DNA from: an uncultured Clostridia bacterium
GTDB taxonomy: Bacteria; Bacillota; Clostridia; Monoglobales; Monoglobaceae
Assembly: GCA_947625905.1 (NCBI GenBank)
Contig: CANQQJ010000005.1
Coordinates: 1-64,000 of the forward strand
Direction: 5' to 3'
Length of the DNA: 64,000 nt
In this document: piece by piece, positions 10,117-20,033 of the stretch
Layout of the letters: each line of letters begins with the position of its first letter
Position numbering within the stretch: position 1 is the first letter of the stretch
Notes under the pieces: model-generated
The model's database searches: none
What the model was told of the DNA's origin: nothing
The model's input: only the letters and a program-made list of their open reading frames with translations
Made by a program: the position numbers and the translations under genes

Positions 10117-11460
10117 TCAAATTCCGTCGAAGGAAATTTCATCCAATATGCCCAGGTCCCAGGCGAGCATTGACAATACATATTTTGCACGTATGTCTTT
10201 TGTTGCTTTAAACGTGAGTGGCACGATCTCGGGGTCGATACCTATTTCCTTCGGGGTTTTGGGAGCGCGCACGGTATCAAATATCCGTTCGATCCGAGAG
10301 TACTCGGGCAGCTCCTCATCCATGATCTTCAATATATCGAGCCAACGTTTTATTATGATTTCCAATCGGCTTTCGTGGTTTTTCGCGTCGTATTTATGCT
10401 CTTTTTTCTCGTTTTGAAACATTGACTCCGCGGCCGTACCCACAAATTCCGAGAGGACAGTTTTCCATTTTGCGTAGTCAAACTCGGCCGCGCTTTTGAG
10501 CGCCTTTTCACTGTCGGGCGTTATTTTTCTTATCTGTTCGTACAGCTTTAAAGATATAAGCGTCGCCACACCGCACTGAATACCGTGCAGATCAACGGAA
10601 GTACCGAACTCGCATCCGCGCATATCCCATATGTGCGAAAAATAATGTTCAACACCCGAAGCGGGTCTTGAAAGTCCGGCGTAATTCATGGCGATTCCGC
10701 TCGCGACCAGGCCCTCAAACACCGCGCGCAACGCTTCATCATCACGACGCATAAGAGCGTCGGCACAATCAACGCATATTTTAAGCGATGCTCTGACCAG
10801 CTCCGCGACCTTCTCGCAGTAATACTCACCTGTAACGATATGCGAGATCCTCCACTCGCAGATGCTTATATACTTCGCCAGCATATCGCCAAGTCCCGCC
10901 CAAAGCATACGATCCGGCGCGGTGGCAAGCACATCGGTGTCTCCTATTATAACGTCGGCACATCGGGACGGCAGCGAGACCTTAAGGCCCGAAAGCGTAA
11001 CCGACGATGTGGCGGATGCAAACCCGTCCATTGACGGCGCGGTCGCCGCGATAATATAGGGCTTTCCCGAAATGTTGCTCAATATTTTGCCTATGTCATT
11101 TATAACTCCCGAGCCGACTCCGACGATCAGATCACAGGAGGGATCAAAATTCATAATCACCGAGCCGACAGAGCTTTCGTCGGGTTCCGGGTTCGGATCG
11201 TTTATCACATATGATATGTATTGTATTTCGTTTTTGTCAAGCAGACCGCATACTTTAATGCCCGCGGCTCTGTAAGTGTTAATATCCGAAAGCACAAATA
11301 CTTTTTCGGCATTATAAACCTTAACAAATTCCGCCAGGCGGTCAAGCGCACCCTTTCCGACGATGATATTATCCACATCAAACACATGCGGTTTTCCGCA
11401 GGCGCACGGCTTTCCGTTTATATCTTTCAGAAGCTTTATAATTCCCTCGTCCGCTTTCAT
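10117..11460 (-). CDS. Glycerol-1-phosphate dehydrogenase-like (AraM/EgsA family, Fe-ADH superfamily)
   Basis: I set the start at the ATG at 11460 (MKADEGIIK), which has GGAGGAAGATA directly before it, giving 447 aa; an upstream in-frame start at 11505 has no ribosome site. Family marks are GVGSGVINDIGK (nucleotide binding), ATAPSMDGFAS and the metal-binding segment SRPASGVEHYFSH. AraM of Bacillus subtilis, in the arabinose operon, makes glycerol 1-phosphate from dihydroxyacetone phosphate with NADH; that is family knowledge. It is the first gene of the operon running to the window start and has a good promoter at 11569-11597. A paralogue lies at 32077-33342. It may instead act on a sugar derivative, because both copies sit among glycan genes. 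Confidence 0.87.
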   Translation of the reverse strand: MKADEGIIKLLKDINGKPCACGKPHVFDVDNIIVGKGALDRLAEFVKVYNAEKVFVLSDINTYRAAGIKVCGLLDKNEIQYISYVINDPNPEPDESSVGSVIMNFDPSCDLIVGVGSGVINDIGKILSNISGKPYIIAATAPSMDGFASATSSVTLSGLKVSLPSRCADVIIGDTDVLATAPDRMLWAGLGDMLAKYISICEWRISHIVTGEYYCEKVAELVRASLKICVDCADALMRRDDEALRAVFEGLVASGIAMNYAGLSRPASGVEHYFSHIWDMRGCEFGTSVDLHGIQCGVATLISLKLYEQIRKITPDSEKALKSAAEFDYAKWKTVLSEFVGTAAESMFQNEKKEHKYDAKNHESRLEIIIKRWLDILKIMDEELPEYSRIERIFDTVRAPKTPKEIGIDPEIVPLTFKATKDIRAKYVLSMLAWDLGILDEISFDGI

Positions 11461-11568
11461 TATCTTCCTCCGTTTGTATTGCGAGCGGTTTTGATCAAAT
11501 AACACCGATCAACATTTTCCTTATCTTATATGATTTCACTATTTTTTATATCCGATTTTATCGATTTT

Positions 11569-11597
11569 AGTTTAACATAAACAAAAAATAATGTAAA
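11569..11597 (-). promoter_or_regulatory. Sigma-A type promoter for the 11460-to-1 operon
   Basis: On the minus strand TTTACA (11597-11592) is followed after 17 bases by TAAACT (11574-11569). It lies about 110 bases upstream of the ATG at 11460. The 256-base gap 11461-11716 otherwise holds only the terminator at 11667-11708. Confidence 0.6.
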
Positions 11598-11666
11598 TAG
11601 CTGTAGCTTTTGTTGTATATATGTCCATGTTTTTGGAAGTAATTCTGAGCGTTTATGAGCAAAAAG

Positions 11667-11708
11667 AAAACGCCTTGTTTGACATTTTTGCCAAACAAGG
11701 CGTTTTTT
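11667..11708. terminator. Bidirectional rho-independent terminator after the deoR-type gene
   Basis: A perfect 15-bp stem (11667-11681 with 11692-11706, AAAACGCCTTGTTTG) surrounds a 10-base loop and has A and T runs on both sides. It begins 9 bases past the stop of the DeoR gene, which it should terminate. It separates that gene from the promoter at 11569-11597. Confidence 0.85.
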
Positions 11709-11716
11709 GGTTTTTA

Positions 11717-12457
11717 TCATTTATTTTGCATAAGCTCTCGAATCTCCCGAGGAAGAGGTTTCTCGCATATTATCTCATCAATTTCATCGACCGTGCACAG
11801 GTTGCTAAGATAGGTTTTTCCGATTTTTGCGCTGTTGCACAGAAACACCTTTTTATCCGCCCTATGCATCATCACTTTTCGCAGCTCGTTCTCCTCAACG
11901 GAGCTGCTGGTGATGCGCCCGTCAAGCGACAATCCTTTACACGAGAAAAACATAATATTGGCGTTGTAATTCATGATAGCCCTCTCGGCATCAGAGCCGA
12001 TATAGCTGAAGGATTTTATCACCATCCTGCCGCCGGTGCAGATATTGGGGATACCCAATTCGCCCAAGGCGCATGAAGATTTCGCGCTGTTTGTAATAAC
12101 CAAGATATCCTTATGGTTCGCAAGGTACGGGATAATGCAGTATGTGCTTGTCGTGGCGTCCAGGAAAATAACGTCCTCGTCACGGACCATGCTTGCCGCC
12201 CGCCTTGCCATATCTGTTTTTTCGGCGTTATAGTCTTTTTCGCGCAAGGCAAAAGACAGCCATTGTTCGGCGGTTTGCGCTCTGAGCTTTGCGCCGCCGT
12301 GAGTTCGGACGATCATTCCTTTGTCCTCAAGCTTCATCAGATCGCGGCGCAGTGTTTGCGCGCTGACAAAAAGGCGCTTTTCAAGCTCACTGATTGTCAC
12401 GCTTTTTTTCATGCGCAGGATATTCAGGATCTCTTCTTTTCTGTCGTCAAACGGCAA
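11717..12457 (-). CDS. DeoR-family transcriptional regulator
   Basis: I choose the TTG at 12457 as start, since GGAGG lies 7 bases before it and the N-terminus then begins directly at the conserved DeoR helix-turn-helix (LPFDDRKEEILNIL; TISELEKRLFVSAQTLRRDL). This gives 246 aa; an upstream ATG at 12511 would add 18 residues without a ribosome site. The C-terminal DeoRC domain carries the sugar-phosphate sensor motifs FLDATTSTYCIIPYL, VITNSAK and GGR. Such proteins repress sugar operons and respond to a phosphorylated intermediate. It has a perfect consensus promoter at 12580-12608 and its own terminator, so it is monocistronic. Its likely target is the adjacent operon starting at 11460, but no operator could be identified. 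Confidence 0.88.
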   Translation of the reverse strand: MPFDDRKEEILNILRMKKSVTISELEKRLFVSAQTLRRDLMKLEDKGMIVRTHGGAKLRAQTAEQWLSFALREKDYNAEKTDMARRAASMVRDEDVIFLDATTSTYCIIPYLANHKDILVITNSAKSSCALGELGIPNICTGGRMVIKSFSYIGSDAERAIMNYNANIMFFSCKGLSLDGRITSSSVEENELRKVMMHRADKKVFLCNSAKIGKTYLSNLCTVDEIDEIICEKPLPREIRELMQNK

Positions 12458-12579
12458 ACCGGTTCCTCCTTCCTTGCCGTAATCGCTGGAACCGCGCGCA
12501 TTTCGCAACACGATCCGCAGGCGAAAAACGCAGCATTACGATGTAGGTTTTGAGTATATTATGCTAAACGCACAACATT

Positions 12580-12608
12580 ATTATACTTTGTTTGCTTCTT
12601 TTTGTCAA
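12580..12608 (-). promoter_or_regulatory. Perfect consensus sigma-A promoter of the deoR-type gene
   Basis: On the minus strand TTGACA (12608-12603) and TATAAT (12585-12580) are separated by 17 bases. All twelve positions match the consensus. The leader to the TTG start is about 115 bases. Confidence 0.85.
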
Positions 12609-12665
12609 TACCTCACATTTGCGGATAATTTTGAGCAGATTTAAATGCGCAAAAAATGGCACATA

Positions 12666-12693
12666 TTGACAAAAAATACGTTATGTTTATAAT
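12666..12693 (+). promoter_or_regulatory. Consensus sigma-A promoter of the orphan gene at 12730
   Basis: TTGACA (12666-12671) and TATAAT (12688-12693) are 16 bases apart, followed by an AT-rich leader with RBS GGAG before the ATG at 12730. It lies back to back with the deoR promoter 57 bases away. Confidence 0.8.
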
Positions 12694-12729
12694 TAAATAA
12701 AAAACCTAATATATAGGAGTGGATCTTAA

Positions 12730-13461
12730 ATGAGCAAAAATTATACCGAGACAAAAACTGAATCGGAAAAATCTCGCGTCATTGATAGGAATGATGTTGT
12801 AAAATTCATGTTTAGAGAGATGTTCGGAACTAACAGCTATGACTATTTGGAAAAAGCGATGAAATCAGAAGCCGGTTCAAAAGAAATGCATAGATACGTG
12901 CGGATCGCCTGCTTGAGAAAAGCGCTGCCCGACGCAATGCTTCATGTTAAAAATAAATATTCGGATAATATCGACGACATCATAAACAACTGCGAACAAT
13001 TATTGGAAAATGTACTGAATGAGTATTCCAAGGAAGAAAAATTTGATTATCTGTGGGATCTGTATTCATCAAATGATACGAAAATAATAAATATTAAAAA
13101 TAAACTACGCGGAATCAAAAAGGAGTTTACTTTCGGCAGGTTCCAAAAGCTGTTTAATATGGCGGTGAAATATTATGTTTGTGTTTGTGAGTTTAAAGAA
13201 ATATTGGGCCTTGAAGGACTTAATGTGTACTCTCTCGAACATGCAAATTGTCCTGTTGATAGAAATATAGTGGATAAATTGAAAGATAAAAAGGACAGCG
13301 CTAATTTACCTTGCAAATACAAGGATCTTCTTAAAAAAGATATAAAGTGGACCAAAATTGATGAAAACGATTACGAGGATTATATTATGATACAGGAAAT
13401 TATACAATTATTGGCTCCGACACTGTCCAATTTGGCATTTGATTTTAAAGAGTGGAAATAA
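12730..13461 (+). CDS. Orphan protein of unknown function next to the nuclease-helicase
   Basis: The 243-aa protein is soluble, charged and lysine-rich, with no signal peptide or membrane segment. I do not recognise a named family. Its C-terminal half has a pattern I associate, from memory only, with hypothetical proteins of accessory regions: FTFGRFQKLFNMAVKYY, then HANCPVDRNIVDKL, then WTKIDENDYEDYIMIQEI. The gene is visibly more AT-rich than the glycan genes around it. It has its own consensus promoter and converges on the nuclease-helicase gene, the two stops lying 64 bases apart with a hairpin between. Composition and position suggest it arrived together with that gene, and it might be its partner or regulator (inference). 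Confidence 0.8.
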   Translation: MSKNYTETKTESEKSRVIDRNDVVKFMFREMFGTNSYDYLEKAMKSEAGSKEMHRYVRIACLRKALPDAMLHVKNKYSDNIDDIINNCEQLLENVLNEYSKEEKFDYLWDLYSSNDTKIINIKNKLRGIKKEFTFGRFQKLFNMAVKYYVCVCEFKEILGLEGLNVYSLEHANCPVDRNIVDKLKDKKDSANLPCKYKDLLKKDIKWTKIDENDYEDYIMIQEIIQLLAPTLSNLAFDFKEWK

Positions 13462-13525: not shown

Positions 13526-16500
13526 TTAAGTTTGCCAGTTTCTTATCAGCTTTTCTGTTTCCGCGATATGCAGAAGCTCAGCAAGATCCTCTTTTTTCTT
13601 TTTCATCTCTTCGCTGTGATTATAGGGAAGAGCCAGCGCGGTCTTTGTTTCTTGATATTGTTTAAGCTTATTCTGATAATTCTCTTCATCCGCCTTTACG
13701 GTTTTTCCGAACCTGATCAAAAAATTTGAAATTCTTTTTATATTTCCTAATGGGGATGTTCCAAGTTCCAAGTCATAATTTACTTCGTTCCGCCTCAGTT
13801 TAACCAAAAGCTTATCCTCATTTTTAGCTGAAAGCACGCAGAATCCGAGAAAGTTTAGCAGTTTTCCGCCATAAGGCGCGCTGCTTATATATTCTTCGGT
13901 CAAAATATTTCTGAATTTCTCTATTTCGGCCTTATATCGCTGAACATCAATGCCTCGCAAATAGTCCCGATTTTTAACCGTCCGATTATATCTCTCCTTT
14001 GCGCGCGGGATTTCTTGTTCAAGATTTTCTTTTTCTTGTTCTAATCTTCTTCTGATTTCGGCCTGCTTATTGATCAAAATCTGAAGCGTTTTAATTTCCG
14101 ATTCAAGTTCCGCGATTTGTTTCATGATCGGATCAGAAAGCGCGATCGCTTTTACCTCCGCATAAGACAGGACATTGTTTTCCAGATCTTCAATACTCCG
14201 TTGATATGAATTTCCGGTTAAAAATTGAGATATGAACCGCTGCTTGTTTTCAAGAATTTGCCAGGAATAAGAGTCAAAGCTGCCTTTTGCGATATAGCGA
14301 AAAATCTCAACGCTGCTGTTTTCGTTCCCGCGGCGCAAGATGCGCCCCTCGCGCTGAGTCATATCGGCCGGCCGCCACGGCACATCAAGATGATGGACAG
14401 CTTTTAATTTTGACTGCACATTTGCGCCGATCCCAAGCTTAAATGTGGAGCCGATCAGAACCTTGATTTTGGCGTGATTCACATCCTCATACATTTTTAA
14501 TCGTGAGTTCTCGCTCTTAAAGCTGTGCACAAAAGCGATTTCGTGACTCGGGATCCCTATGTCAATAAGCAGTTCCTTCATCTTTGCATAAACGTTGAAT
14601 TTTTCAGACTTCGGAACGGAGTAATCGCAAAAAATCAGCTGTGATGTGTGCGGATGCAGTTCGTATATTTTTTTCACATTTTCCGCACAGGCGCTCAACT
14701 TTGAAAACTCATCATAGCTTTGCCGCTCTCCAACCAGCGTCAGGTCCAAAGCGGCTTTCCTTCCGTCGGTGCTCACCTTGGCCATGTTGTCGGTCTTACG
14801 ATTGACTGCGCCTGCTCGAATTTCCTCCGCACGTTTACAGATTTTTGACATATATCGATCCAGGTCTTCACTCTTTGGGATCTCAACATTTTTGTAATCC
14901 ACCCGATCCGGAAGACCGTTTTCCCGATCCATTGCATAAAAGACCGCGATCTGCGAAAACATTAGTGAAAGCTCGGGCAAATTAAAAAATTTCGCAAAAC
15001 GCGTCACGAACCGATAATTTACTGCGGTCACGTCAACCTCGAAAACCTGCTCGGGCTGCGCAAATGTTTTGACCCAGTTGTCAAATATATCAAGACGTTT
15101 AGAGTGCAGATCATCATACTGCAAATACATTTGCATGGTATATGCGTCAGTAATTGAATTGCAAAGCGGCGTTCCGGTGGCGAGGACGGCGCCGCGGCCG
15201 TTATTATTTTTTTGCACATAACTGATTTTTTTCAGCATTTCGAGGCACTTTCGAGAACCGTTTTTGTTAATTCCGCGTATATTTTTCATATTTGTCCTGA
15301 TGGGAATATTCTTATAATTGTGCGCTTCATCCAAAAAAACAGTGTTGATATCCAGGTCGTCAAAAGTTATTTCGGAATTAATTTTTTCGCAAACAGCTAT
15401 AAGCTCATCCGCCTGCTTTTCTATATAATTAATTTCACGCTTCGCTACCGATTTGATCCTCGCTGTTCCGAAACGCTTTGTCCCGAATGTGTCTATAATA
15501 CCATTGATATCGGCTGCTTTTTCACGCATATCGTCCATGATATATTTTTTTGACAGTGGTATCCTTTCCAGACAGCTGTACGCAATTATGATGCCGTCAT
15601 AATCGCCCATTTTCATCTGCGAAAGTACCTTCCGACGCATTTTCGGTTTAAAGGTTTTAGGTTCGATCGTAAGCAGCTTAGCGCTCGGATACAGATCCGA
15701 GAAAACTTTTTCCCACTGACCCACAATGTTATTCGGCACCACGAACAAGTTCTTCCGTGAAATCCCCATTTCCCTCATTTTCATAGCCGCAGCGATCATA
15801 ATATATGTTTTTCCCGCACCTACGTCAAAGGCGAGCAATGTATTATTTGAATTTATGATCCGCGAAACCGCGTCTTTTTGATAATCATACAGCTTGAATC
15901 TTGAGTTCATTTTCGGAAAATCAAGCTTACTGCCGCTGAACCGCTGTCCCTTGTAATGACCAAAAAGCCGATTATACGCTTCTTCGATCTGCCATTTCCT
16001 GTCCTCATCCTCCCAGACCCAGCTTTTAAATTCATCATTGATCAGTTTTTGTTTTTCCAGAGCGGCAAGCGTGTCAGACTCGCTGAGTTTTCTGCCGCTG
16101 TTATAGATCTTGATCTCACGCAGATTTAATGTCGCTTCGATAATCCACAGCGCGTTGAAGCGCGGTATACCGTATTTTACGTTAACATTTGAATTTGTAC
16201 AGTTCCGCTTGCCGTTTATAAACCACGCTCCGGTAACAGGTTCGTAGTCAACGAATGAATCAAAATTATTTTCTCGATCACCCCAAACAATATGATTTAC
16301 AAAATCGTTTACAATATCTTTATCAATCCAAGGCACTCCGAGCGATGCTTCGATTTTTTCCCACGTGATCTTGTGAGGAGTCCGCTCGATCTTCTTTTCA
16401 CAAATATTTTCTTTTTTATCACGTAGTTTTTTGGCTTCGCGGTACAAATCTATCCATTTGTCTAATGTGAACTTATCAAAATCTTTTTCGGACAGAGTAT

Positions 16501-17101
16501 CGATAATATCAAGAACGGGAATGTTTTTAAAAGCTTCTTGTTTACTGTAAATCGTGTAATCAACAGCGCCAAAGAAGGAATAATCACGATGCAGCAGCTC
16601 ATAAGCTATCTGTTTTCCCAACGTCTTTTTATCCGTTTGACTGCAGATTCTATCGGCAATATATCCCTTTTCTTTTTGCGCGTAAATCGGCAATTTGTTT
16701 TTAATTAACATATTTTTCAACTCTATCTTCCATAGCACAGACAGCTGGCTTCGCCTGGAAACAAGATCGTTTTTGCGTGCATTTCTCAAAATTTTCAAAC
16801 CGTCATCCGCGATATAAATAATGCCCCAGTGCTTCGGAACCTTCTCTTCCGCGCTTGCAAGATGTTTGTGGCTGACCACGATATAATTTTCATCAAAAAA
16901 TTTATCATAAAATCTTATTTGCCGCTTAAGCCTTTGATAATTGTCACCGTCGCTTTTGATCTCAAACCCTATCAGCCTATCCGTGACCGCCATTACATCG
17001 CAAACAGCTTCACCAATGCTTTTCTCCTGATAAATGCGAACTTCCTTATATCGCGTTTTTATAAAGGAAATTAATATTATTCTGATAGATTTATCCTTCA
17101 T
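13526..17101 (-). CDS. Fusion of sce7726-like PD-(D/E)XK nuclease domain with SNF2/DEAD-type helicase
   Basis: This 1191-aa protein joins two enzymes. Residues 1 to about 115 match the sce7726 nuclease-like family: D35, then E47-I-K49 in LIGFEIKSDGDNYQRLKRQ, then KVPKHWGI, which together give the PD-(D/E)XK pattern D-X11-E-X-K. From about residue 400 a superfamily 2 helicase follows: DVGAGKT with K431 (Walker A), LDEAHNYKN with D591 (motif II), ATGTPLCNSITDAYTM (motif III) and QREGRILRRGN from Q916 (motif VI). The helicase part resembles those found in phage and conjugative-element methylase-helicases of the DarB type, but no methylase motif is present. A coiled-coil-like Glu/Lys-rich region ends the protein (about 990-1180). 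RBS GAAGGAAAG precedes the ATG. Gene and orphan neighbour are AT-richer than their surroundings. A DNA-targeting defence role is likely but unproven. Confidence 0.85.
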   Translation of the reverse strand: MKDKSIRIILISFIKTRYKEVRIYQEKSIGEAVCDVMAVTDRLIGFEIKSDGDNYQRLKRQIRFYDKFFDENYIVVSHKHLASAEEKVPKHWGIIYIADDGLKILRNARKNDLVSRRSQLSVLWKIELKNMLIKNKLPIYAQKEKGYIADRICSQTDKKTLGKQIAYELLHRDYSFFGAVDYTIYSKQEAFKNIPVLDIIDTLSEKDFDKFTLDKWIDLYREAKKLRDKKENICEKKIERTPHKITWEKIEASLGVPWIDKDIVNDFVNHIVWGDRENNFDSFVDYEPVTGAWFINGKRNCTNSNVNVKYGIPRFNALWIIEATLNLREIKIYNSGRKLSESDTLAALEKQKLINDEFKSWVWEDEDRKWQIEEAYNRLFGHYKGQRFSGSKLDFPKMNSRFKLYDYQKDAVSRIINSNNTLLAFDVGAGKTYIMIAAAMKMREMGISRKNLFVVPNNIVGQWEKVFSDLYPSAKLLTIEPKTFKPKMRRKVLSQMKMGDYDGIIIAYSCLERIPLSKKYIMDDMREKAADINGIIDTFGTKRFGTARIKSVAKREINYIEKQADELIAVCEKINSEITFDDLDINTVFLDEAHNYKNIPIRTNMKNIRGINKNGSRKCLEMLKKISYVQKNNNGRGAVLATGTPLCNSITDAYTMQMYLQYDDLHSKRLDIFDNWVKTFAQPEQVFEVDVTAVNYRFVTRFAKFFNLPELSLMFSQIAVFYAMDRENGLPDRVDYKNVEIPKSEDLDRYMSKICKRAEEIRAGAVNRKTDNMAKVSTDGRKAALDLTLVGERQSYDEFSKLSACAENVKKIYELHPHTSQLIFCDYSVPKSEKFNVYAKMKELLIDIGIPSHEIAFVHSFKSENSRLKMYEDVNHAKIKVLIGSTFKLGIGANVQSKLKAVHHLDVPWRPADMTQREGRILRRGNENSSVEIFRYIAKGSFDSYSWQILENKQRFISQFLTGNSYQRSIEDLENNVLSYAEVKAIALSDPIMKQIAELESEIKTLQILINKQAEIRRRLEQEKENLEQEIPRAKERYNRTVKNRDYLRGIDVQRYKAEIEKFRNILTEEYISSAPYGGKLLNFLGFCVLSAKNEDKLLVKLRRNEVNYDLELGTSPLGNIKRISNFLIRFGKTVKADEENYQNKLKQYQETKTALALPYNHSEEMKKKKEDLAELLHIAETEKLIRNWQT

Positions 17102-17307
17102 GACGTGCTTTCCTTCTTTCCTTTGCTGTAATTCGCAGTATGCTTTGTATCACTCTTACGGCAAGACACTTATTATAATTTAATTTTAGTGCAGCGGACA
17201 TACAAAAAATCGCACAGCTTATCAAATTATTGAAAGCATGTGCGTCTATTTGCTTTTGAAGCGCCGCTAACACGGCTGCCGCTATTTTATTATCAAATAT
17301 AAGTTAA
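17102..17307. other. Intergenic stretch upstream of the nuclease-helicase gene
   Basis: It contains the leader of the nuclease-helicase gene. A TATAAT lies on the minus strand at 17177-17172, but no convincing -35 hexamer is placed 16-18 bases upstream, so I do not call a promoter with confidence. A 60-codon open frame here shows no family features. Confidence 0.4.
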
Positions 17308-17332
17308 GCGGCGCTGCGTATTGCAGCGCCGC
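17308..17332 (-). terminator. Terminator hairpin after the GH2 gene
   Basis: A perfect 10-bp GC-rich stem (GCGGCGCTGC, 17308-17317 with 17323-17332) encloses a 5-base loop. On the minus strand it is followed by TTAACTTATATTT and lies 15 bases beyond the GH2 stop codon. Confidence 0.75.
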
Positions 17333-17347
17333 CTGTGATTTGCTAAA

Positions 17348-19105
17348 TTATTCTTTATCTTCGAGTTCTATTGCGGCGGCTCGAGAATTGATCTCCCTTA
17401 TTATATCGGGATCGAATTTAAATTTTCTGTCGTATGTCATAAGTCCGTTGATCTCTTGCTCCACATCATAAAGCTGTGTATAGCAGAATCCAAGCATGTA
17501 CGGGTTATTTAGGAGGGCGGCAGTAAGCCCGCGATAGCGCTCAATAAATTCTTTCTCGCTCTTGGGCGCCTCTCCGTAGCCCCAGCCCTGAACGTCCTCA
17601 AATGACCAGCGTATGCCGCCATACTCACTGACAAACGTCGGAGATACGCCGTCATATTTTTGGCGCGGGCGCCGCGCCGGATCGCGATATATATGATCCA
17701 TTATTATTCCCTCCGGTATTCTGTCAAAATATGAAGCGAAAGTCTTAGGATCTTGAGTATAATCATGGACATCAAATATGTCCGTTTCAACATGATAGTT
17801 TCCGCTGGTATCAATGACCGGTCTTGTCGGATCTACCGCTTTGGTTACGCGGTAAACCAGCCTCAACAGCTCGTCGCACTGCTTTCTGCCCTCGAAATCC
17901 CAGGTTTCGTTGAAGGGGCACCATCCGATGATCGAAGGGTGGCTCATGTCGCGCCTCAGGGCTTCGAGCCATTCGGGGAGAAAATGCTCGATTTGATCCA
18001 TTTCGGTAATGTTAAGGCCCCAATTTGCGTGCTCTCCCCATACAGTGTAACCGAGTTTGTCGGCCCAGTACAGATATCTTGGTTCAAATACCTTTTCGTG
18101 CATACGCGCGCCGTTGAAACCGAGGCTCATTGAGTACAGAATGTCGTTTTTGAGTGCGTCGTCGCTCGGGGCGGTATATATCCCGTCCGGATAAAAGCCC
18201 TGGTCAAGGACCCACCTTCCGAACACCGTTCGGCCGTTTATCTTGAGAACTCTGCCATCAAGACATACGCTTCGCAGGCCGAAATAACTTGAAACCTCGT
18301 CGTATATTTTATTGCTCTTTTCTATTTTCAGTTTAAGGTCGTAGAGACCGCCTCGACCCACCTCCCACAAATGTTTTTCGAGCAGGTCTATCGTGAGCTC
18401 CGGCGAATCGGAGTACACGCCGCACGAAGCGCTTCCGACCGGCTTACCGTCCCAGAATGCTTCGGCCGTGATATTACAGCCGTTGAAATCGCCGCCGAGC
18501 TCAAAGCGGATATGCACGCTCGGTCGATCCAAAGAGGTCGTTATTGTCATATTTTCGATTCGGCATTTGTCAACGGGCTCAAGCCATACTGTCTGCCAGA
18601 TCCCGGTCGTGCGCGTGTAATAGCAGCCGTATGAATGCAGCTTTGACGACTGTTTTCCGGCCGGTTGATCGGCACTTCTCACATCGTCAAAGACACATAC
18701 GGTTACACTGTTTTTGCCGTCTTTGATATGTTCCGTGATATTAAAGCAAAACGGAGTATATCCCCCCTTGTGAGAACCCTCGTATTCTCCGTTTATATAT
18801 ACTTCGGCACGATAGTCCACAGCTCCGAAGTGAAGGATAATATCCTTTCCGTGCCACTGCTTCGGAATATCAAAATCCCTTCTGTACCATACACATTCCA
18901 TGAAATCGGTATGTCCTATCCCCGAAAGCTTGCTTTCGGGACAAAACGGCACGATTATCTTGCCGTCAAGCGAGGAACGGTTGAAAAATTCCCGTTCAAT
19001 ACCGTTCTTCGCGTCGTCGATCTCAAAATCCCATTCTCCGTTGAGATTTAACCACTCGTCCCTGACCAGCATGGGTCGCGGGTATTCATTTCGCGGTACA
19101 CTCAT
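17348..19105 (-). CDS. Cytoplasmic glycoside hydrolase family 2 protein
   Basis: The 585-aa protein has the GH2 order: sugar-binding jelly-roll (about 15-170, NLNGEWDFEI ... WYRRDFDIP ... VDYRAEVYINGEYEGSHKGG), Ig-like domain (about 175-275), TIM barrel (about 280-575). The expected acid/base is E400 in CPFNETWDF and the nucleophile E494 in FVSEYGGIRWS. GH2 includes beta-galactosidases, beta-glucuronidases and others; the specificity cannot be set from sequence alone. Without a signal peptide it should act on imported oligosaccharides. It is shorter than LacZ and of the size of beta-glucuronidases and related short GH2 enzymes. RBS AAGGAGG precedes the ATG. It is monocistronic, with its own promoter and terminator, and divergent from an AraC regulator that probably controls it. 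Confidence 0.9.
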   Translation of the reverse strand: MSVPRNEYPRPMLVRDEWLNLNGEWDFEIDDAKNGIEREFFNRSSLDGKIIVPFCPESKLSGIGHTDFMECVWYRRDFDIPKQWHGKDIILHFGAVDYRAEVYINGEYEGSHKGGYTPFCFNITEHIKDGKNSVTVCVFDDVRSADQPAGKQSSKLHSYGCYYTRTTGIWQTVWLEPVDKCRIENMTITTSLDRPSVHIRFELGGDFNGCNITAEAFWDGKPVGSASCGVYSDSPELTIDLLEKHLWEVGRGGLYDLKLKIEKSNKIYDEVSSYFGLRSVCLDGRVLKINGRTVFGRWVLDQGFYPDGIYTAPSDDALKNDILYSMSLGFNGARMHEKVFEPRYLYWADKLGYTVWGEHANWGLNITEMDQIEHFLPEWLEALRRDMSHPSIIGWCPFNETWDFEGRKQCDELLRLVYRVTKAVDPTRPVIDTSGNYHVETDIFDVHDYTQDPKTFASYFDRIPEGIIMDHIYRDPARRPRQKYDGVSPTFVSEYGGIRWSFEDVQGWGYGEAPKSEKEFIERYRGLTAALLNNPYMLGFCYTQLYDVEQEINGLMTYDRKFKFDPDIIREINSRAAAIELEDKE

Positions 19106-19159
19106 TATGTATTCCTCCTTGTTTGATTTTGCATCAAGTATGTGAATGTTTTTTCTTTA

Positions 19160-19187
19160 ATTATATCAGAAATTTACTCAGCGTAAA
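19160..19187 (-). promoter_or_regulatory. Promoter of the GH2 gene
   Basis: On the minus strand TTTACG (19187-19182) is followed after 16 bases by TATAAT (19165-19160). The -35 hexamer overlaps the dyad at 19172-19188, as expected for a regulated promoter. Confidence 0.7.
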
Positions 19188-19188
19188 T
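19172..19188. promoter_or_regulatory. Candidate operator dyad between GH2 and araC-type genes
   Basis: ATTTAC (19172-19177) and GTAAAT (19183-19188) form a perfect inverted repeat with a 5-base centre. It covers the -35 region of the GH2 promoter and ends 19 bases before the -35 of the araC promoter. The regulator that binds it is presumed to be the adjacent AraC protein. Confidence 0.5.
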
Positions 19189-19207
19189 GATAATTTCTAC
19201 TTAAATA

Positions 19208-19236
19208 TTGACATTTTATACTGCGTAGGTTATAAT
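19208..19236 (+). promoter_or_regulatory. Perfect consensus sigma-A promoter of the araC-type gene
   Basis: TTGACA (19208-19213) and TATAAT (19231-19236) are exactly 17 bases apart. The start codon follows only 17 bases after the -10, so the leader is very short. Confidence 0.85.
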
Positions 19237-19253
19237 ATCAATTGGTGGTGTTT

Positions 19254-20033
19254 ATGAATTTTTTGCTTATCGAATCATTATATCCCGAAGAAGAGAATTT
19301 CACACTGCACAGAGATAATATCGGACAGCAATATATTTTTTTGCATTTTCTCACTCCGGTGACCGCGATCCTGAAAGGTCATGAAGTGGATATAACGCCG
19401 GGAGGCTGCGTTTTTTTCGGCATGAATTCCATGCAGCATTTTTCATCGCGGATATGCGGACTGCTCCACGACTGGTTCCACGCCGACAGCGGCTGCGTTG
19501 AGCTTTTGAAAAAATATGGCATTGAATGCGAGACGGTCTACTATCCCGAGGACAGCGGCGAGATCACAAGGATCATAAGCGAGATCCAGATGGAATATAC
19601 GCACAAAGGCCGGCACTATCGTGAAGCAGCCGACGCGCTTGCCGAGCATATGTTTATTAAGCTCGCGCGCTCAAAGGACAATGACAAACAAATGCCGTCC
19701 TCATGTTTTGTCTATAAAGATCGATTTATCGAAGCGCGGGCGCTGATACACATGGATCTGCGGCGCCAGTGGCATGTTCGGGAAATGGCGGAGCTTGTTA
19801 ATTTAAGTCCTTCGCGTTTTTATTATATCTATAAGAATATTTTCAAAATATCGCCTCAGCAGGATTTGATAAACAAAAGGATCAAAACGGCGCAGGTCCT
19901 GCTTATGGAAAACAAGCTTAGCGTTGAGGAGACCGCGCGCCTCACGGGATATACAAACCAATACCATTTTATACGCCAATTCAAGCAGATCACCGGGACA
20001 ACGCCCGGAAAAATGCGTTCGGAAAAAATTTGA
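19254..20033 (+). CDS. AraC-family transcriptional regulator
   Basis: I place the start at the ATG at 19254 (259 aa) with GGTGG 5 bases before it; an in-frame TTG at 19242 is possible but lies only 5 bases past the -10. The N-terminal half (about 1-150) looks like the cupin-type ligand-binding domain. The C-terminal hundred residues hold two helix-turn-helix motifs: WHVREMAELVNLSPSRFYYI and LSVEETARLTGYTNQYHFIR, ending in the AraC signature TGTTPGKMR. Such regulators usually activate a neighbouring glycosidase or transporter gene when a sugar binds. The divergent GH2 gene with a dyad in the shared 148-base gap is the obvious target. It converges on the aldo/keto reductase operon. Confidence 0.9.
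   Translation: MNFLLIESLYPEEENFTLHRDNIGQQYIFLHFLTPVTAILKGHEVDITPGGCVFFGMNSMQHFSSRICGLLHDWFHADSGCVELLKKYGIECETVYYPEDSGEITRIISEIQMEYTHKGRHYREAADALAEHMFIKLARSKDNDKQMPSSCFVYKDRFIEARALIHMDLRRQWHVREMAELVNLSPSRFYYIYKNIFKISPQQDLINKRIKTAQVLLMENKLSVEETARLTGYTNQYHFIRQFKQITGTTPGKMRSEKI

Follow-up and report, generated by a model that had tools for sequence, protein, structure and literature searches.

What would a protein do for its bacterium if it joins a domain of the sce7726 family to an SNF2-type helicase and carries no methylase? The question is raised by P0001, a protein of 1191 amino acids (aa) encoded in a 64,000-nucleotide stretch of an uncultured Clostridia bacterium of the Monoglobaceae (assembly GCA_947625905.1, contig CANQQJ010000005.1, positions 1 to 64,000), the whole of which we call the window. 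A first-pass annotation had recognized both parts in one protein and proposed a system for defence or element maintenance, encoded together with a neighbouring gene. Our results incline us, if only slightly, to read P0001 as a single-chain nuclease-translocase, encoded by the host, whose role is defence against phages or other invading DNA. We count for this reading the domains and motifs of the protein, its place in a single clade, the constraint on its domains, the proximity of WYL regulators, one island-like neighbourhood (L043), and the loss and decay of copies.

Both parts were recovered in a single intact open reading frame (ORF). Residues 1-173 belong to the sce7726 family (NF033832; 134.5 bits against a curated cut-off of 70, E 3.8e-39, NCBIfam), and residues 241-1182 match phrog_10089, "DarB-like antirestriction", with an E-value of 4.9e-184 (PHROGs). 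In Pfam, SNF2-rel_dom, ResIII and Helicase_C all exceed their cut-offs, and the SNF2 and Helicase_C domains together with Walker A, DEAH and motif VI identify an SNF2-type motor of helicase superfamily 2. The residues singled out in the first-pass annotation all stand where it had placed them: D35 within CD 34-35, E47-I48-K49, K431 within GAGKT 428-432, D591 within DEAH 591-594, and QREGR 916-920. It was also right about the methylase, as no methylase family is among the Pfam and NCBIfam matches of P0001; residues 1-240, where a methylase would sit, consist of the sce7726 domain and a linker, and two PHROGs called "DNA methyltransferase" align to helicase residues only (235-747 and 869-966). 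An assembly artefact can be dismissed, since homologues that run from residue 1 into the helicase, 50-83% identical, occur in other genomes.

Judged from its sequence, the N-terminal domain is probably a PD-(D/E)XK DNA nuclease in which the QxxxY motif is RecB-like. Across an alignment of 16 rows, E26, D35, E47, K49, Q61 and Y65 are identical in 11/11 fusions and in 5/5 stand-alone sce7726 proteins, the latter being those that met the motif filter of the script among nine loci tried. D...ExK residues define the PD-(D/E)XK nuclease superfamily, and such active-site residues are present as D35, E47 and K49, invariant in 16/16 rows. The succession of D-x11-E-x-K and Q-x3-Y is one that we take to resemble nucleases of the RecB/Cas4 type. 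P0001 thus shares its conserved residues with the sce7726 family at large, but unlike its stand-alone relatives (at least 38% identity, frames of about 180-230 aa) the domain here heads a large motor protein. Moreover, the nuclease and helicase domains of the fusion look to be under constraint. Between the window copy and L033 the ratios of non-synonymous to synonymous substitution (dN/dS), which are only rough because dS is near 1, were 0.083 for the nuclease, 0.218 for the linker, 0.096 for the helicase and 0.146 for the tail, and between L037 and L040 they were 0.060, 0.185 and 0.091 for nuclease, linker and helicase; in the comparison of the window with L034, dS had reached saturation in three of the four protein parts.

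This pattern bears on the possibility that only the motor acts, remodelling or removing protein-DNA complexes on foreign DNA, while the sce7726 domain serves to bind DNA ends and does not cleave them. Genome G430 retains the motor without the sce7726 domain, and the related helicases of the AAA-VWA group described below (L103-L106, L162-L167) show no match to the N-terminal domain; both observations favour such a role. The six residues invariant in 11/11 fusions and the low dN/dS of the domain speak against it, and we consider it distinctly improbable.

The motor separates the fusions from the methylase-helicases of mobile elements. Our first tree held 36 helicase parts, namely 9 fusions, 7 other short proteins and 20 rows called methylase-type from ORF length and, in some, also from N-terminal sequence; the interrupted or contig-cut copies L040, L041, L043-L045 and L049 were omitted. 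The 9 fusions formed a single clade (100/100), which four of the short proteins joined at 100/100, away from the methylase-type rows, while L055, L083 and L084 fell among those rows. A second tree of 34 rows, including 11 methylase-type and eight newly fetched short proteins, returned the same split (100/100), with six of the eight new proteins on the fusion side and L128 and L150 off it. Both trees were rooted at the midpoint only. P0001 is accordingly no DarB-like methylase-helicase, since it has no N-terminal adenine methylase and falls outside the methylase-type rows in both trees. It shares the SNF2-like motor family phrog_10089 with the DarB-type methylase-helicase dyad of phages and conjugative elements (PMC5512222), but differs from that dyad in the absence of a methylase, in its separation at 100/100, and in that no fusion is among the plasmid and phage matches listed.

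It could nevertheless be hypothesized that P0001 serves a mobile element in maintenance or antirestriction, as a helicase of DarB-like type that acts on entry to protect or process the DNA of the element, with sce7726 replacing the methylase. The motor does fall in the DarB-like superfamily, records with a match to P0001 number 1329 for plasmids and 84 for phages, and the families TnpV and DUF4368 occur among the fusion neighbours (2/140 members each). Against this stand the position of the fusions outside the methylase-type helicases, and the plasmid and phage records themselves: among the matches listed (best 20 of 1329 plasmid, best 25 of 84 phage) none starts before residue 200. Coverage reached 80% in 8 plasmid records, of which the one among the matches listed spans 209-1185. 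No relative of P0001 was confirmed in two viral-contig scans, and element boundaries were not found around the insert, with no tRNA in the window, no Rfam match, and only short repeats of a chance type. We therefore regard a role in element maintenance as quite unlikely, and of the two roles first proposed for the locus it is the one that lost ground; defence gained from the patchy distribution, the WYL proximity and the restriction-type genes at some loci described below. Searched by itself, the N-terminal domain finds 25 plasmid and 161 phage records, which in the best 15 of each set are named sce7726 or hypothetical or carry no annotated name.

The fusion family is real but rare and patchy. 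Six exact peptide patterns, scanned over 84,980 species genomes, gave 13 loci (L033-L045, which include the G004 locus as L033 and the G010 remnant as L042), and this count is a lower bound. Together with the window and G160 (62%), which was added by a class-wide sample, these loci place the sce7726 part in 13/15 genomes of the fusion clade, all of them scattered Clostridia. Among 100 relatives, the window's own genome included, we found one other full-length fusion (G004, 83%) and the truncated remnant in G010 (residues 792-1182). A full-length fusion was present in at least 2/391 class genomes, counting the window's; a match from residue 1 was confined to the seed genome in the Ruminococcus flavefaciens family set (1/396) and to the window genome in the phylum set (1/398), and all three counts are lower bounds because at most two candidates were scored per genome. 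Draft assemblies and metagenome bins make up many of the surveyed genomes, and the two Ruminococcus flavefaciens loci form a close pair, as do those of Flintibacter (L038) and Pseudoflavonifractor.

Several copies are interrupted or divided between contigs. The L039 copy carries a frameshift, the halves of the G433 fusion are split over two short contigs, and the fusion genes of L040 and L043 are interrupted, with group II intron parts found inside both by Rfam and additional in-frame stops in L043. The intron parts lie, together with reverse transcriptase ORFs, at L040:12755-15059 and L043:11127-13763, at differing insertion places; in L040 the break falls at the conserved helicase motif HHLDVPW/RPADM, and splicing could restore a whole message there.

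Rarity and decay have to be set beside a further alternative, in which P0001 would be a chromosomal nuclease-remodeller of DNA repair or replication restart with a housekeeping role. That sce7726 can be a core gene is suggested by the stand-alone genes of Monoglobus, which in 7/8 genomes come immediately after rnc and a radical SAM gene (the exception being L026); there the domain has the look of a chromosomal gene inherited vertically. A WYL protein, PafBC, moreover controls a DNA-damage response (PMC11804915). The fusion itself behaves otherwise: it is as rare as the class, family and phylum counts indicate, its gene contexts differ between most genomes, and copies decay (G010, L039, G430). 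A repair role thus seems to us fairly unlikely. At three longer stand-alone sce7726 loci, genes for an acyl carrier and fab-like genes, named from their translations, lie upstream.

The neighbourhoods of the fusions offer a link to defence. In 7/12 genomes searched (G425, G426, G427, G428, G429, G431 and G160) the fusion has a WYL regulator no more than 8 kb away, a limit set only after the maps had been inspected, whereas the WYL gene count of each genome would predict 0.23 such cases (P about 4e-10); the distances in these seven were 1.4-4.1 kb. When near-duplicate hosts were counted once, the figures were 5/9 against 0.18 expected (P about 2e-7). The search took 12 of the 15 genomes, leaving out G424, G433 and G010. 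The match in G160 is weak (27.1 bits for a cut-off of 21.8), and the WYL proteins are diverse, ranging from 95% to 23% identity to the one at L037. No WYL gene was found near the fusion in G423, G430 and G432, where short contigs restrict the view; at L044 (G432), a 92-aa ORF 6.3 kb upstream resembles the start of a WYL regulator and was not counted. The first-pass annotation had suggested that homologues with both parts be collected and their contexts compared, and co-localization with defence-type regulators in independent genomes, as expected of a defence gene, was indeed found through WYL in these genomes, though not in that of the window.

Other neighbours point in a similar direction at single loci. 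Pfam identified WYL, PDDEXK_4, RNase_T, PHP, metallophosphatase, DUF2201, DUF2779/Cas4-like, ResIII and reverse transcriptase proteins among selected neighbours, of which those with PDDEXK_4, RNase_T, PHP and ResIII each lie beside a fusion in single loci. The clearest island is L043, with a DPPY-bearing type III methylase-like gene, two genes that are GmrSD-like by motif, and two WYL genes. With PADLOC at 1e-10, 140 ORFs near the fusions of 13 loci matched 111 models and 82 far ORFs matched 28, a contrast that is soft and only supporting because the models overlap and the far set, which includes a DrmD-like helicase and mad3/AriA, is not free of defence genes. The far set comprised 82 of 91 listed far ORFs, nine far ORFs of the window having been left out. 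The near members included WYL (7), SspE-like (2), DEDDh (2) and a type III methylase (1), and the tallies do not tell which member matched. At L038:8299-9972 and L039:7536-9962, a gene resembling a PHP domain or DNA polymerase III alpha lies directly upstream of the fusion, separated from it in L038 by 13 bases between the ORFs as listed.

The defence reading should be interpreted with some caution, since several observations weigh against it besides the late choice of the 8-kb limit and the softness of the PADLOC contrast. Neither the window genome (G000) nor G004 has a WYL gene near the fusion, and the window copy is flanked by genes that, from their translations, belong to sugar and redox metabolism. 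In G430 the ORF of the fusion-clade helicase (L041:7216-9408) begins at query residue 208, its sce7726 domain being gone, and tblastn at this locus found no sce7726 trace. The sce7726 domain has no notable sequence relative in the PDB (best E 0.074), and a profile of the fusion alignment gave zero PDB matches at 1e-5. Profile-profile comparison of the N-terminal domain with a PDDEXK_4 protein was not significant (probability 0.3%, E 0.21), nor was that with a Cas4/DUF2779 protein; the controls were a WYL protein as negative (0.1%) and a stand-alone sce7726 protein (100%). The PDDEXK_4 alignment does put E47, K49, Q61 and Y65 opposite E, K, Q and Y, and was given no weight. Finally, the titles and abstract starts covered by our literature search held no functional study of any sce7726 protein, although 4 papers name sce7726 and 3 name sce7725; no paper on an sce7726-SNF2 fusion was found in that search either, most subscription journals lying outside its reach.

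How a defensive nuclease-translocase of this kind might work is suggested by known systems. Proteins of the Hna (PMC13381803) and Nhi (PMC12904381) type likewise combine a nuclease and a helicase-type motor in one polypeptide, and the fusion likely works by the same logic as these single-gene defence proteins, from which it differs in pairing an sce7726 domain with an SNF2-clade motor. The Hna family is not among the profile-library matches of P0001, the presence of an Hna model in these libraries being unchecked. Nuclease-helicase logic is also shared with Hachiman HamAB (PMC12278908) and DISARM DrmD. Hachiman, unlike the single chain of P0001, is a two-protein complex, and the helicase part is only weakly similar to DrmD (57.2 bits, far under the cut-off of 610), so that P0001 does not belong to that family. 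The Hachiman helicase keeps its nuclease in check as long as DNA is intact and switches it on where DNA is damaged (PMC12278908); Hna forms a dimer that inhibits itself at physiological ATP and is destabilized by a phage single-stranded DNA-binding protein (PMC13381803); and BrxR, a WYL repressor, has homologues of which 48% co-localize with defence systems (PMC9122601).

From these precedents we infer what DNA cutting, restraint, trigger and WYL control might be in the fusion. Because Hachiman and Hna spare self by restraint, and P0001 has no methylase by which self could be marked, P0001 may by analogy be an auto-restrained nuclease-translocase, with BrxR as the precedent for the WYL neighbours of its relatives. 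The SNF2 motor would load on aberrant or unprotected double-stranded DNA, such as ends or stalled or replicating phage DNA, travel along it at the expense of ATP, and feed or license the tethered nuclease, which would be kept inactive where chromosomal DNA is intact or the ATP level normal. In many hosts the WYL regulator probably also controls transcription of the fusion. If this is true, gut Clostridia would add a compact one-gene nuclease-motor immune factor to those known, and the sce7726 family would gain a setting for functional tests.

The fusion side of the trees holds ten shorter helicases that are not fusions, and 7/10 share one operon, in the order helicase, MoxR-like AAA ATPase (370-374 aa) and DUF2201 VWA protein (415-493 aa), with overlapping ORFs; the genes were identified by Pfam in L103 and by blastp at the other loci. 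At L164-L166 there was no AAA or VWA match, and in L166 the helicase is masked on the map by a longer opposite ORF. The AAA protein of the operon scores 15.3 bits, below the bpMoxR cut-off of 27, and no methylase family was found in the two operon helicases scanned. The fusion resembles the operon in its side of the tree (100/100) and in listing no methylase, and differs from it in having an sce7726 domain in place of the AAA-VWA pair; in the related short helicases, other N-terminal sequence occupies the sce7726 position. An AAA-VWA pair as partner of the fusion was considered and rejected at the loci examined, where L034 alone has a DUF2201 VWA gene nearby and no AAA match was found. Since some MoxR-vWA ternary conflict systems have helicase partners of the SWI2/SNF2 clade (PMC7159879), the operon may be a variant of these systems, from which the fusion differs in having neither a MoxR nor a VWA partner; the name DUF2201 does not appear in the text of that paper. 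In L105, the gene just upstream of the operon carries TIR and TPR domains.

Tentatively, and as a possibility that we hold with considerable doubt, it could be hypothesized that a methylase-free branch of the DarB-type SNF2 motor was taken over by bacterial hosts to serve as an immune sensor and motor whose output modules can be exchanged. One sub-branch would then be fused to sce7726 and often under WYL control, and the other would drive the pair of a MoxR-like AAA protein and a VWA/metallopeptidase-like protein. Were this true, it would suggest that hosts have turned a protein family of mobile-element invasion around.

The features of the window locus and the related loci are collected in Table 1. 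P0001 is probably transcribed alone, to judge from the terminator-like hairpin on its upstream side and the ribosome-binding-like sequence ahead of its ATG; terminator-like sites numbered 7 in the window where 5.2 were expected. The fusion ORF has a G+C content of 0.412 against 0.505 in the rest of the window, and the L033 fusion 0.444 against 0.505, which suggests that the fusion reached Monoglobus recently. Low G+C was dropped as a general indicator of transfer, being clear only in these two Monoglobus copies; at ten other fusion loci measured, the fusion ranged from 0.042 below to 0.026 above its flanks. In a search for an empty site, the flanks 17300-19400 and 10117-12720 were unmatched in 11 other genomes of the genus.

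Table 1. Positions of the fusion, its parts and adjacent features in the window, and loci of related genes elsewhere
Feature	Position	Strand	Remarks
P0001, 1191-aa sce7726-SNF2 fusion ORF	13526..17101	-	intact single frame; profile matches and homologues
sce7726 domain, probable PD-(D/E)XK nuclease, residues 1-180	16562..17101	-	predicted from E26, D35, E47-x-K49, Q61-x3-Y65
Linker, residues 181-240	16382..16561	-	lower conservation; dN/dS 0.218 (window vs L033)
SNF2/DarB-type motor, residues 241-1050	13952..16381	-	GAGKT 428-432, DEAH 591-594, QREGR 916-920; dN/dS 0.096
C-terminal tail, residues 1051-1191	13529..13951	-	lower conservation; dN/dS 0.146
Ribosome-binding-like purine-rich sequence AGAAGGA	17111..17117	-	precedes ATG at 17101; read from sequence
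Terminator-like hairpin, 12 pairs, 9 G-C	17306..17334	-	between fusion and upstream gene 17348-19105; consensus match only
P0002, neighbour ORF	12730-13461	+	
Stand-alone Monoglobus sce7726 loci	L159:9761-14511, L160:4380-10177, L161:5475-10196, L003, L022, L024, L025, L027		
Helicase-AAA-VWA operons	L103:7798-13773, L104:7378-13715, L105:5832-11852, L106:5849-12133, L162, L163, L167		Clostridia

The neighbouring gene, P0002, had been taken to form a pair with the fusion. We rejected it as a partner or antitoxin, as its homologues sit away from fusions: in G004 the homologue is on contig C3, beside a PHP/DNA polymerase III alpha-like gene, with the fusion on C32, and in G007, which has no fusion, it lies beside SecDF genes. 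No trusted family, PDB or viral-contig match was found for P0002. It belongs to a small family with members in G004 (67-69%) and G007 (36-42%) and a weak fourth relative in G174, about 3 kb from an AAA-VWA operon, the shared pattern being QKLxNMxxKY...CPxD...W. Between P0002 and a regulator-like ORF on the minus strand (11717-12511), positions 12580-12693 contain two divergent sigma-70-like promoters with perfect consensus (12/12), which span a 22-nucleotide imperfect inverted repeat.

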